Assembly (NCBI GenBank): GCA_031177865.1
Contig: JAPSKD010000011.1
Coordinates: forward strand, 1 to 38,907
DNA: 38,907 nucleotides
Reading direction: 5' to 3'
Source: Bacillus sp. (in: firmicutes)
Lineage (GTDB): Bacteria; Bacillota; Bacilli; Bacillales; Cytobacillaceae
Shown: positions 30,591 to 36,837 of the stretch, in pieces
Numbering within the stretch: position 1 is the stretch's first letter
Layout: every line of letters starts with the position of its first letter
Notes under the pieces: generated by a model
Database searches by the model: none
The model's input: only the letters and a program-made list of their open reading frames with translations
Told to the model about the DNA's origin: nothing
Translations under genes and position numbers: made by a program

Positions 30591-31139
30591 TTACATTTGG
30601 TAGCGATCCAATATTGAAAAGAAATCTTTTAAAAAATCATAGAAAATACTAACTGTAGGGAGCATTTTGCGTTCTCTTGGAATAATGACCCCGACCGTAC
30701 GGGTAACCTCAGGCTCAATAATCGGTACCTTTTCTGTTGAACGAAGGAACCCATCCACCAGTGTCATTTCCGGAATTAATGTAATTCCAAGTCCTGCTGA
30801 AACCAAACCTTTTATTGAATCAATATCAACTCCCTCGAAAGACACCTTCTGCTGGAAACCCAGCTGCTCAAATTCTTCATCGATAATTTCCCTTAAAATA
30901 TAGTCCTTAGGAAACAAGACAAAGGATTCCTCACTCAGTTGGCTTAATATTATGGTTGACTGTTTGGCTAATGGATGACTAGACGTTAATATGCCACAAT
31001 ATTATCTGTAAATAATGTTTTTCCCATCACCTTCTTCTCGTGTTTTGGAACAAGTCCTATGATTGTACTACGTACAGTACGGTTGCCGCCTCGCAAAACA
31101 TGTTCACGTTTGGCTACTTCCATAAAGTCTTAATTCCAA
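30591..31139 (-). pseudogene. GltC-like LysR-family regulator, internally deleted
   Basis: From a TTG start at 31139 with AGGTG upstream, the remains read MELR, then (after a short deletion and frame change) FMEVAKREHV, the standard opening of GltC-type regulators. The helix-turn-helix and about 120 residues are then missing; sequence resumes at IIGLVPKHEKKVMGKTLFTD, shifts frame again after about NIVA, and continues LTSSHPLAKQ, ESFVLFPKDYILREI, then VDIDSIKGLVSAGLGITLIP to ILDRYQM. The C-terminal effector domain follows my memory of B. subtilis GltC closely. Without the DNA-binding domain it cannot act as a regulator. It is divergent from gdhA. Confidence 0.85.
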
Positions 31140-32705: not shown

Positions 32706-33295
32706 TTATGCGGTTTTCTTAAGCCAATTCCGGCCTTCAACCAGTCTTGAAACCATCATTCCCGCACCATTATCTCCACTTTTCGTTCAGCATGGTTGCT
32801 GGCGGATCGATTAACGTAGAAATCGCCGCAATGATGGGCAGTGCCTCAGGCGGGAATCCAACCAGAATGGAAATCACAATAAGCACCAACATATTGCTTC
32901 TAGAAAACAATTCTACAAAACCTGGTACAGTAAAAGTTTTAACAATTTGTGCGACTGGATTTAACTCCTCCGCGGCTTCCGGTTTGACTAGCTTTAAATT
33001 TACGCCTTCACCGGGATTTACGAATTTTACGACAAAGTACATATATATGGCTGATACGAGACCTGTAAAGAGGAAGGTGCCAAACATTTTTCCGAATCTT
33101 TTTGCTCCATTCATATTTGCAATAGAAGAGGAAATCGTAAAGAAAATAAGCGTTACAAAAATCGTGAATAACAGATTTAAAAAGATATCCCCAATCGGCT
33201 GAAAGATTACAGCATCATCCTTCATGACCAACCCTACAATTGCTCCAATTAAAATGGATAGCAATAGTATGAAGTTAATTTTTCATTTTTTCCAT
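32706..33295 (-). pseudogene. DctA/GltP-type Na+/H+-dicarboxylate or glutamate symporter, broken
   Basis: A start ATG at 33295 with GGAG upstream gives MEKMKN and then a stop; shifting one frame continues NFILLLSILIGAIVGLVMKD and FQPIGDIFLNLLFTIFVTLI, the N-terminal region of the dicarboxylate/amino acid:cation symporter family. After SILVGFPPEA the sequence jumps to LPIIAAISTLIDPPATMLN, a C-terminal motif, and a further shift gives SGDNGAGMMVSRLVEGRNWL. Roughly 220 of about 420 residues are missing. It lies convergent to gdhA, and glutamate or a C4 dicarboxylate would have been the likely substrate. Confidence 0.82.
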
Positions 33296-34255: not shown

Positions 34256-34849
34256 CTATTTATTCATACTGGCTAGAAATCCACCCAACAGGTCATCTAA
34301 ATCAGGCTCTTCCTCAACCTTTTCCTCTTGTATCAAAGGTTTTGCATTTTCCCAATCAAACTCATCTAAGTCATCATCCATATCAGATAAATCGATTGAA
34401 GCAGCAATTTCCTCTACAACACGATCATTTTCTGAGTAGGAATTTATATCAAGTTTCTCAGGAAATACTTCTTCTTGCAGGTATAAAGCTTCATCAATAT
34501 CGACCGATCTGCTATTTAAACTTGCAAGCAGAGAAGTGGAACGAACAGGATCTGATATCAATTGATAGATAATACTCCCTAACAATGCTTCAGAATGTTC
34601 ATGCTTCAACCAGTCGCGTTGTGCTTTCGTCAGCTTTTTTGGCAGAGGAACGGTAATCATCTCGCGTTCTCTTGCATTTACGTTACCGACACCTTCCATC
34701 ACAAACTCAGCAATTTTGCTAGAAAAATTTCTTCTTTCGGTTTCCTTTAATTTTTGCAGCTGCTTAATTAAATGGTCAGGTGTATCAGAAGGGACACGGA
34801 AGGAAATCGCCTGTCCCCGCTGAATTTCATTCGATCCAGCTTTTTTCAT
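34256..34849 (-). CDS. ParR-like ribbon-helix-helix partition adaptor
   Basis: A 197-residue protein. Residues about 12-52 (GQAISFRVPSDTPDHLIKQL, then QKLKETERRNFSSKIAEFVM) read as a ribbon-helix-helix: one short strand and two helices, the DNA-binding fold of ParR proteins. A second helical block follows (TKAQRDWLKHEHSEALLGSI). The last ~45 residues are strongly acidic and end with DLDDLLGGFLASMNK; in ParR proteins a C-terminal helix binds the end of the actin filament, so this tail is the natural candidate. It begins 12 bases after the actin gene, with AGGGTG upstream of its ATG, and should bind the iterons at 36168-36350. The assignment is from architecture and context. Confidence 0.65.
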   Translation of the reverse strand: MKKAGSNEIQRGQAISFRVPSDTPDHLIKQLQKLKETERRNFSSKIAEFVMEGVGNVNAREREMITVPLPKKLTKAQRDWLKHEHSEALLGSIIYQLISDPVRSTSLLASLNSRSVDIDEALYLQEEVFPEKLDINSYSENDRVVEEIAASIDLSDMDDDLDEFDWENAKPLIQEEKVEEEPDLDDLLGGFLASMNK

Positions 34850-34861
34850 TTTATCACCCTA

Positions 34862-36049
34862 TTAATTCGTAACAGGTTTTTTAGGTTGTTCAACCTTTGG
34901 TTTCTCTGCTTTTCTAACAAAATCTTGGATCAGCTTATAATAGGCATTTGCCATCATCCAAATACTCTCTTTTTCATCCTCAAAGAAATCAATATTAAAA
35001 CCATCAAGATTATTATTTAATGTTTTAAGATAATCCTTTAAAACAGTTGCTCCGCCGCCCACAAAATAACAGATTTCTGTTTGTGAATTCTTTGACCAAA
35101 CATTTCGTAATAAACGATATTGCTTCTTAGCTAAGTCTAGTAGAATGCGGTCAGTTATATCATGAACACTTGTTCTGCTTCCTTTTACCATGATATGATT
35201 ACGGTCGTTTTTCTTGGTGATGATTTCAACAACATCACGACGGCTGTCTAGTTCAACACCGTGCTTTGTTCTAATTTCTTCACGGATTGCTTCTAATGAT
35301 TCTGAAACTCCAAGATTAAAGCCTTGTGCCTTATCATCATCTACATTGCGGTTTTTAATAACGGCGATATCTGTTGATAATCCGCCAATATCTTGAATCA
35401 AGATACGCTTATCGATTAAGTCCTTATTAATGATTTTTGAGTTATTATCCATTACTAGATTTATATAAGCAGCAAATCCTTCAGGATATACCTTGATTTC
35501 ATCAAACTTGATATTCACTTTTAATCCTTGATATTTTGGTGTAACTAGAAATTCAACTTGATGAACGGATCCTATTAACTTCGAGCGATACCCAGCGTCC
35601 TTGCCTTCTTTAACCTCACGAAGGGGGAGACCTGTTCCAAGTGTATAATTTGCATCAATGACATTTTTCGTTTGACGGAAATTATTCTTATTTCCTTCCT
35701 TCACAGCGTCCAAAGCCAATGTAGTAAATAGCAAAATTAACGTTTGATCTTCTTCAGACTTACTGCTGCCAGGATCTAATTCAGTACCATTGTTACTTTT
35801 AGTTGCTAGATTTCCCACACGATAAATGACGTTATTCTCCTTTAATGCAGGAGAGTGCACTTTTACATGGATACCATCAAGTGGATTTTTATCATCTAAT
35901 TCTTCTATTCCAATTACAGGGCGGTCTTCCGTGTCCCTTGCGATAATATTAGGGATATTAAGTTCATATTCTAGTTCTCCAAAAATCGCCTTAATTGAAT
36001 CATTTCCAACGTCAACGGCTGCAATTCTAGTATTATTCAAAATTGTCAT
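34862..36049 (-). CDS. ParM/StbA-family actin-like partition protein
   Basis: A 395-residue actin-fold ATPase. Phosphate-1 motif AAVDVGNDSIKAIFG has Asp13, Gly15, Asn16 and Lys20; phosphate-2 is QDIGGLSTDIAV (Asp220 to Asp227); the adenosine motif is CYFVGGGATVL (about 328-337). Family members polymerise into filaments that push plasmid copies apart, anchored through ParR bound to a centromere. The C-terminus is Lys/Pro-rich. The start is uncertain: ATG at 36049 has AAAGG directly against it, whereas TTG at 36040 places AAAGG at normal spacing. An iteron array and a consensus -10 lie upstream, and the ParR-like gene follows at 12 bases. No plasmid replication gene is in the window. Confidence 0.88.
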   Translation of the reverse strand: MTILNNTRIAAVDVGNDSIKAIFGELEYELNIPNIIARDTEDRPVIGIEELDDKNPLDGIHVKVHSPALKENNVIYRVGNLATKSNNGTELDPGSSKSEEDQTLILLFTTLALDAVKEGNKNNFRQTKNVIDANYTLGTGLPLREVKEGKDAGYRSKLIGSVHQVEFLVTPKYQGLKVNIKFDEIKVYPEGFAAYINLVMDNNSKIINKDLIDKRILIQDIGGLSTDIAVIKNRNVDDDKAQGFNLGVSESLEAIREEIRTKHGVELDSRRDVVEIITKKNDRNHIMVKGSRTSVHDITDRILLDLAKKQYRLLRNVWSKNSQTEICYFVGGGATVLKDYLKTLNNNLDGFNIDFFEDEKESIWMMANAYYKLIQDFVRKAEKPKVEQPKKPVTN

Positions 36050-36101
36050 CCTTTCATTCTCTTATTTTAGAAGTAAATGAAGATATGTATCTAGCTTCTC
36101 T

Positions 36102-36107
36102 ATTATA
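36102..36107 (-). promoter_or_regulatory. -10 element of the parM-like operon
   Basis: On the minus strand CTTATAATAG contains a perfect TATAAT 53 bases before the ATG. No good -35 is present at 16-18 bases; the iteron array starts about 60 bases further upstream, so ParR binding could assist or repress. Confidence 0.45.
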
Positions 36108-36167
36108 AGAGTATAGAAGATTGGTAGATTCATCAATAATCTGAGCAAAAAAAATGAAAATGTAAAA

Positions 36168-36350
36168 TTGTAAACATTATGTAATCGTTGTACACATTTT
36201 TGTATACAACAATCACAAACTTGTATACATTGCTTAACAACGGCATGTACACAGGTTTGTATACACGTAAACATTTTTGTAAACGTAATGTATACAAGAT
36301 TGTAAACATGTGTACGATTCATGTAAACACGTATACGTTTCTCGTAAACA
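36168..36350. repeat. centromere-like iteron array, about 14 copies of TTGTAWACA
   Basis: Copies or near copies of the 9-mer TTGTAWACA start at 36168, 36188, 36200, 36221, 36245, 36257, 36265, 36277, 36288, 36300, 36309 (degenerate), 36321, 36329 and 36342. Spacing is mostly 8-13 bases or about double that, near one helical turn. Variants swap the first T for A or C and the central W, and TGTATACA is self-complementary. The array lies immediately upstream of the actin gene, where ParR-binding parC sites of type II partition systems are found, and ends at the terminator of the next gene. Confidence 0.8.
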
Positions 36351-36377
36351 AAAAAAGACCCTCATTCAAGAGAGTCT
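36349..36377 (-). terminator. intrinsic terminator of the DUF3052-like gene
   Basis: On the minus strand AGACTCTC, loop TTGAAT, GAGGGTCT is followed by a seven-T run that ends where the iteron array begins. The stop codon lies inside the stem. Confidence 0.85.
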
Positions 36378-36837
36378 ATTCCTGCTCCGTACGTTTTTTA
36401 CCCACTTCTGTTACAGCAAAGGTTCGTACCATTTTCTTAATTTTTTCAGGCTTTCGGAACCTTAATGCAGACCAGTCATCGTCAATCGCAATTTGTCGTA
36501 CTGGCTCAAAGCCTTCTTCAGAGAGCATACCTGTTACAGTTTCACGGCTGCAATCGGACCCTTTATAGGTTTTAGATGATTTCTTTGGATAGCAGAGCCA
36601 TAGTAAACCATCCTCACTTAAATAGGTTACCGCATTTTTCGCGTGTGATTGAAGTTCTAGATTACTTGTTCCAAACACTTGAACAAAATCATACTTCTGT
36701 AGCTCAGCCTGTTCATGTACCTCCCCTTCAAACGCCGCCTTAATATCATCATAAGACTTTGGTGCATTGATAACTAAAACTGGCTGCCCTTGATCCTTAA
36801 AATTCAACTTTTTTAATACAGGAGCTGCTTCTGTCAT
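36376..36837 (-). CDS. DUF3052-like hypothetical protein
   Basis: A 153-residue soluble protein. The order KKLNFKDQGQPVLVINAPKS, VQVFGTSNLELQ, EDGLLWLCYPKKSSKTYKGS and IDDDWSALRFRKPE resembles the DUF3052 family, small proteins of unknown function that keep the YPK(K)xS and WSALRFR motifs. There is no signal or membrane segment. The C-terminus is basic (KKMVRTFAVTEVGKKRTEQE). ATG at 36837 has AGAGGAAG upstream. It sits next to the iteron array but has its own terminator, so cotranscription with the partition genes is unlikely. A lone iteron-like AGTATACAC lies in its promoter region at about 36878-36886. Confidence 0.6.
   Translation of the reverse strand: MTEAAPVLKKLNFKDQGQPVLVINAPKSYDDIKAAFEGEVHEQAELQKYDFVQVFGTSNLELQSHAKNAVTYLSEDGLLWLCYPKKSSKTYKGSDCSRETVTGMLSEEGFEPVRQIAIDDDWSALRFRKPEKIKKMVRTFAVTEVGKKRTEQE

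Follow-up and report, generated by a model that had tools for sequence, protein, structure and literature searches.

Which replicon does an actin-type partition module serve when the genes around it look chromosomal? In plasmid R1, ParMRC consists of an actin, a ribbon–helix–helix (RHH) adaptor and an iteron centromere, and Alp7A–Alp7R–alp7C is the partition locus of the Bacillus subtilis plasmid pLS20. We analysed a stretch of 38,907 nucleotides (the window), a contig of a 5.43-Mb, 486-contig Bacillus sp. genome, that holds a module sharing the three-part logic of R1 ParMRC, and the Alp7A_like_C domain and the order iterons–actin–adaptor liken it to Alp7A and plasmid ParM/StbA loci. Its neighbours, which an initial annotation made from the letters had named gdhA, pepT and inhA, matched NADP-glutamate dehydrogenase, peptidase T and an M6-domain metalloprotease in NCBIfam, in agreement with those names. 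The module is made up as follows, with the evidence for each feature in brackets:

34256..34849, minus strand: parR-like adaptor gene, 197 aa (open reading frame, adjoins parM, homology to a plasmid protein)
34259..34300, minus strand: adaptor codons 184–197, conserved C-terminal helix with the motif F[LF]xxMN (motif count, model helix 184–195)
34862..36049, minus strand: parM-like actin gene of the Alp7A/ParM type, 395 aa (open reading frame, Pfam, PHROG, alignment)
36050..36145, minus strand: leader between array and parM, probable promoter region (alignment of 17 leaders)
36170..36349, no strand assigned: parC-like array, 14 iteron cores 8–24 bases apart (positions, shuffles, conservation)

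The 395-aa protein is Alp7A-like by gathering score and a ParM/Alp-type NTPase as found in type II partition: Pfam matched it with PF22128 (Alp7A_like_C; 6e-38, 130.5 bits, cut-off 22) and PF17989 (ALP_N; 6e-10, 39.9 bits, cut-off 26.3), and PHROG 691 (phrog_691), a 'partition protein', with an E value of 1.3e-41. The nucleotide motifs could be read off its sequence as DVGNDSIK, DIGGLSTD and VGGGATVLKDYL, and mean column identity was 81% in an alignment of 20 actin sequences. A sequence search of the PDB returned two ParM matches (E 0.004–0.006). The AlphaFold model was poor (pLDDT 49); with this model, Foldseek placed BtParM, Alp7A, pSK41 ParM and Dh-cParM1 among its top ranks, at a TM of about 0.37. 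The NCBIfam model of FcmB (NF052678) scored 26 bits, under its cut-off of 300, so the actin is not a member of that family.

The adaptor gene lies downstream of parM, across a gap of 12 bases. In an alignment of 20 adaptors, about 110 conserved N-terminal residues are followed by a variable acidic middle, and F[LF]xxMN stands at the C-terminus in 99 of 100 adaptors (one further locus, L112, yielded no protein). In the AlphaFold model (mean pLDDT 62.9), residues 25–37, 42–61, 75–82, 84–99, 101–112 and 118–125 are helical, the acidic linker after them is disordered and a last helix spans 184–195. Because this moderate model shows no ribbon strand, the N-terminal part, with helices after it, is called RHH-like on its sequence pattern. 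No Pfam or PHROG family was found for the adaptor at E 1, NCBIfam gave only a chance-level match (0.087), and comparison with the PDB, by sequence and by fold of the moderate model, returned no meaningful match. A plasmid ParM has a neighbour in the corresponding position, and the adaptor aligned with it (39% over 98 columns, 5e-27); three such plasmid neighbours, of 144–149 aa, are 32–39% identical to the adaptor over 94–98 columns, and have other C-termini than the chromosomal adaptor, ending in acidic tails. The C-terminus of R1 ParR, a protein shorter than the 197-aa adaptor, binds ParM, and we therefore take the C-terminal helix as a candidate actin-contacting tail.

Upstream of parM, the window array contains 14 exact core hexamers of the GTWWAC type (GTATAC, GTAAAC, GTTTAC, GTACAC and GTGTAC). 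Markov shuffles of the region gave a mean of 1.54 cores and a maximum of 9, reaching 14 in 0 of 5,000 trials, and the array is the single cluster in the window with at least four strict cores per 150 bases. We extended the count to 101 loci, the window included; the short genus loci L001–L020 were left out, locus lengths differ and flanks are unevenly covered, some loci are redundant (L059 and L119, for example, are one genome) and parM is present in all by construction. Their upstream regions held 1,200 core-like hexamers against 141 in shuffles, with core spacing peaks at 8, 11–12, 20, 30–33 and 42 bases, and all 101 had at least five cores upstream, 100 in the usual place and one displaced. 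With a stricter core and at least four per 150 bases, one locus out of a subset of 20, L117, was without a cluster; under the wider definition it has 8 cores. When the window was compared with six close relatives, the 84 core columns were 93% conserved and the 107 spacer columns 71%, a comparison that somewhat favours the cores, as they were defined in the window. An iteron array beside the operon, as in type II partition, is thus present. The displaced case, L046 (Cytobacillus citreus), keeps 12 cores at −553 to −393, beyond an insert between array and parM, and an array that persists away from parM is more in keeping with a centromere than with a promoter operator. This insert, at about −390 to −30, is repeat-like, and the array has been pushed upstream by roughly 230 bp. 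Between array and gene, the 17 aligned leaders conserve an element, TTGAWGAATCT..TTCTATA (TTGAWGAATCTA..AATCTTCTATA), that is partly an inverted repeat, and TACATA is invariant among them; positions 36050–36145 are probably the promoter region.

The initial annotation had read from the letters a ParM-family actin with all three nucleotide motifs, a partner 12 bases downstream with an acidic, helical C-terminal part and more length than the classical adaptor, and about 14 upstream iterons. Pfam, PHROG and the motif reading bear out the first and the open reading frame coordinates the second; an acidic linker with a C-terminal helix is indeed predicted, at moderate model quality, the 197 residues exceed the 144–149 of the three plasmid relatives, and the 14 exact cores stand far above the shuffles. 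A search for other iteron clusters in the window and in its own genome found none besides the parM-linked array: a DNA similarity search of the genome, which diverged arrays could escape, gave no second array (next match E 0.48), and a local scan of about 359 kb of origin-side sequence (L121–L139) gave none away from parM. Centromeres dispersed over the chromosome, considered as a candidate, were rejected on these two results. Two of the loci contain a second iteron cluster: in L101 (8483–8601) it lies downstream of parR, in L115 (8263–8380) upstream of parM by about 1 kb.

The repeats of plasmid relatives are different in sequence or in number. Directly ahead of parM, four of these relatives (L189, L190, L191 and L192) carry short repeats that vary among them (GCATAC/GCATGC-like, GTATAC or TGGATAC); plasmid L191 has four GTWWAC cores at −98 to −53 and plasmid L192 four TGGATAC repeats. 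By this comparison the chromosomal form has a larger array, placed further upstream, and a longer adaptor.

The pair of genes keeps together where its surroundings do not. The adaptor adjoined parM in 101 of 101 loci and the next commonest neighbour cluster occurred in 31; comparison of gene order in relatives thus finds the actin–adaptor pair constant and the flanking genes changing, and the module travels as a unit while the surrounding genes turn over. Just upstream of the array, a small protein (36376–36837, minus strand) with a weak, below-cut-off match to DUF3052 belongs to a cluster found in 13 of the 101 loci. Two truncated genes mark the zone beside the module as one with gene remnants: a 164-aa open reading frame (32770–33264, minus strand) whose first 137 residues match positions 15–162 of the 428 in a C4-dicarboxylate transporter model, and a 108-aa fragment (30591–30917, minus strand) that matches the end of GltC.

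Next, we examined where orthologues of the actin occur. In the genus the actin was matched in 61 of 61 genomes, 60 of which have one orthologue at 86–100% identity; the remaining genome, G024, has instead two ParM relatives, at 44% and 40%, about 18 kb apart. Both lie on one of its contigs, C40 (108420–109532 and 127069–128178), possibly a plasmid or element. The family gave matches in 164 of 193 genomes (156 strong, 8 weak) and the order sample in 225 of 397 (201 strong, at E ≤1.1e-199, and 24 weak), with identities of 79–100% among the matches listed for the order; in two strong copies (G065 and G606) a stop interrupts the matched frame. In two families related at class level only (f49 and f73), eight genomes hold an orthologue at 78–81%; across the class, 55 of 299 genomes have the Pfam domain, against 0 of 14 control genomes. 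The closest named matches are in Bacillus sp. 7884-1 and Neobacillus niacini. In seven genomes, mean pairwise identity was 79.8% for ParM, 80.6% for the Soj-type ParA and 82.1% for WalR, which puts ParM on a level with these two proteins in conservation. It is nonetheless dispensable, because 37 of 193 family genomes are without an orthologue.

These orthologues lie on chromosomes. In 50 of 50 single-contig carriers examined, dnaA was on the same contig, and orthologues occur on complete chromosome records such as L035, L041, L082 and L097. Relatives were found in 86 of 72,556 plasmid records, all below 60% identity, the plasmid actins reaching at most about 45% among the matches listed, and in 2 of 50,697 phage records, at 25%. 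The initial annotation had offered the reading of a partition system that was domesticated, or of a chromosomal actin with a centromere-like site of its own, to be abandoned if the contig proved to be a plasmid; the clade is chromosomal, and this location, with adaptor and array in 101 of 101 loci each, supports the proposal.

Among the matches listed, the 50 single-contig carriers comprised 48 from the genus, family and order searches and two from the class-wide search; in 49 of them parM lay on the same side of dnaA, at 34–300 kb, and its transcription ran away from dnaA, and the median distance over all 50 was 76 kb, or 1.6% of the chromosome. The exception, G079 (a shotgun scaffold, L059), has parM 766 kb away on the other side, and its pepT has moved too. 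Reading from dnaA to parM in seven genomes gave a block of dnaA, mnmG, ParA- and ParB-type genes, a DnaB-type helicase gene, purA, walRK and rlmH, some of which were seen in five or six of the seven, with gene names checked on G452; by position, the ParA- and ParB-type genes are soj, spo0J and noc. In all seven, parMR stood 0.5–26 kb outside rlmH, in a slot that is a variable zone.

Whether this linkage is passive can be judged against pepT, the single control gene, which in the window lies 4.3 kb from parM. Of the 50 genomes, 38 had a pepT orthologue (at least 63% identity), which in 23 stood on the same side within 310 kb. Outside the genus, where 12 further genomes are without a pepT orthologue, pepT kept its place in 12 of 27 genomes and parM, in those same genomes, in 26 of 27 (Fisher 5e-5, not corrected for phylogeny). 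We also compared the ParM tree with a tree of five core genes beside dnaA, identified by position as dnaA, dnaN, recF, gyrB and gyrA (19 taxa, G445 dropped): 4 of 16 splits were common to both, and four well-supported ParM splits conflict with strong core-gene splits. ParM distances tracked core-gene distances weakly (Spearman 0.35, against 0.67–0.91 for the five core genes; r 0.36 in a separate comparison), so its history is not simple, and we do not claim simple vertical descent. Together, the pepT control and the tree conflict indicate that the origin linkage is not wholly passive; if the conflict reflects horizontal exchange, exchanged copies still came to lie beside the origin, and the conflict may also stem from in-place replacement by recombination or from hidden paralogy. 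Because the slot beyond rlmH is variable and the surroundings of oriC are considered to be seldom rearranged, the linkage could also be historical.

The carriers share a further property. In the order sample, spoIVA was missing from 15 of 397 genomes, none of which had parM, strong or weak, and strong parM was present in 201 of the 382 with spoIVA (hypergeometric 2e-5, not corrected for phylogeny). The 15 genomes fall in families f7, f14, f26 and f36; in f7, all 14 genomes that have SpoIVA carry parM and neither of the 2 that lack SpoIVA does, and the spore formers of f36 have no strong parM, which leaves about three informative losses to carry the link, itself confounded by small genomes. All eight carriers outside the order have SpoIVA, and neither G726 (no SpoIVA) nor G575 (a remnant only) gave a strong match to the parM domain. 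In this sample parM is confined to spore formers. It is not required for sporulation, because all 28 genomes checked among the 37 family genomes without an orthologue have SpoIVA; the system is possibly useful in sporulation.

The origin region is where RacA and Soj/Spo0J work in B. subtilis, and we considered parM as a replacement for RacA. The RacA-like model (labelled PRK13182.1-1; NF009646, which we take to be the RacA model) matched B. subtilis only among 14 controls, and 0 of 397 genomes exceeded its cut-off. Scored with this model, 127 of the 397 genomes had both, 74 parM only, 116 the RacA-like match only and 80 neither (Fisher p 0.47), and the genome of the window has both. Replacement was rejected, as the RacA-like match showed no association with parM. 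The locus shares the origin region with Soj/Spo0J, ParA- and ParB-type genes lying between it and dnaA; unlike the actin system, neither RacA nor Soj/Spo0J involves an actin.

By sequence, the locus is a widespread, origin-linked, chromosomal ParMRC-like family. Chromosomal ParMs were reported in 2025, when PMC12270681 described, in the part available to us, ParMs encoded on the chromosomes (cParMR) of Desulfitobacterium, Clostridium, Moorella and Bacillus tropicus; those of Desulfitobacterium and Clostridium were characterised, and Bt-cParMR-1 of B. tropicus (Bt-cParM1, WP_001968526.1) was listed, its Bt-cParM being reported as conserved on several Bacillus chromosomes and of unknown function. 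The likeness, a ParM-type actin with an adaptor on a chromosome, is one of description, whereas an origin-linked position, breadth across families and restriction to spore formers were not seen in that part of PMC12270681. In the portion seen of PMC12645912, FcmB of filamentous cyanobacteria is likewise a partition-derived actin fixed on the chromosome, but turned to cell shape, with no DNA array reported there. For the origin link of a chromosomal ParMRC we found no earlier report among the titles and abstract beginnings of the openly licensed PMC literature. Similarity to R1 ParMRC is remote, R1 standing lower in the structure ranking (from a weak model), and the replicon here is a chromosome.

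We propose that the module is a chromosomal type II (ParMRC-like) partition system with the chromosome's own origin region as its cargo, a reading to which we assign a probability of roughly 60%, on the basis of its observed parts, their co-conservation, the conservation of iterons above spacers, the chromosomal location and the origin linkage. Its DNA binding, polymerisation, force and moment of action we infer by analogy. As in plasmid ParMRC, the adaptor, as a multimer, would bind the array of 14 iterons upstream of parM, and its C-terminal helix, held on a flexible acidic linker, would contact or cap ParM-type actin filaments at their ends. Filaments that grow between the two copies of a replicated array could then drive sister origins apart or keep an origin at the pole. 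With ParA- and ParB-type genes present between the locus and dnaA, the actin system would not be the only segregator: it would work alongside ParABS, assisting and not replacing it, possibly at the origin-to-pole stage of sporulation. The wider proposition is that an actin spindle serves the chromosome in many endospore-forming Bacillota: ParM-type filaments would push or hold a true centromere array near oriC and so take the origin to the pole at sporulation, partly in parallel with RacA and Soj/Spo0J. We hold it to be tentative, with the odds against it.

Three other readings were weighed against origin partition. The module might be a neutral or selfish remnant of a par locus from a plasmid or integrative element, settled beside rlmH and perhaps acting against related plasmids by incompatibility. 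Its place in the variable zone 0.5–26 kb beyond rlmH in all seven genomes, the discordant trees, suggestive of exchange between lineages, and the gene remnants nearby would suit such an origin; a protein identity that stays at about 80% over seven families, like that of the Soj-type ParA, would not, nor would the same side and orientation in 49 of 50 carriers. Moreover, no other gene cluster is common to more than 31 of the 101 loci (mobility genes were not searched by name), and the iterons of four plasmid relatives differ in sequence or number, so we regard a remnant as unlikely.

Slightly less probable still is domestication for a job other than segregation, such as cell shape or a membrane scaffold, with the array serving as an autoregulatory operator only. 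Chromosomal fixation with strong protein conservation would be expected of it, and FcmB/FcmC set a precedent (PMC12645912, as far as its available part goes), but the actin falls far short of the FcmB model (26 against 300), a shape function predicts no origin linkage, and the array has 14 cores against about four in plasmid relatives L191 and L192. It is also placed beyond the leader, on the upstream side, its cores are better conserved than the spacers, and it outlasts displacement from parM. That the window itself derives from a plasmid or an integrated plasmid whose module still serves that element is hardly credible: the best-known relatives are plasmid-borne, yet the 86 plasmid records all stay below 60% identity, phages add only two at 25%, and orthologues sit on single contigs with dnaA, which refutes it for the clade; with the complete chromosomes considered as well, a plasmid locus was rejected.

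The location of the module beside the origin in many spore formers suggests that an actin filament may move or hold a bacterium's own chromosome. Should the actin-spindle reading hold, it would give the first known case of an actin-type partition machine moving a bacterial chromosome. As a conserved, origin-linked family with an array occurs in named, cultured genera, chromosome segregation by a ParMRC machine becomes a testable question.
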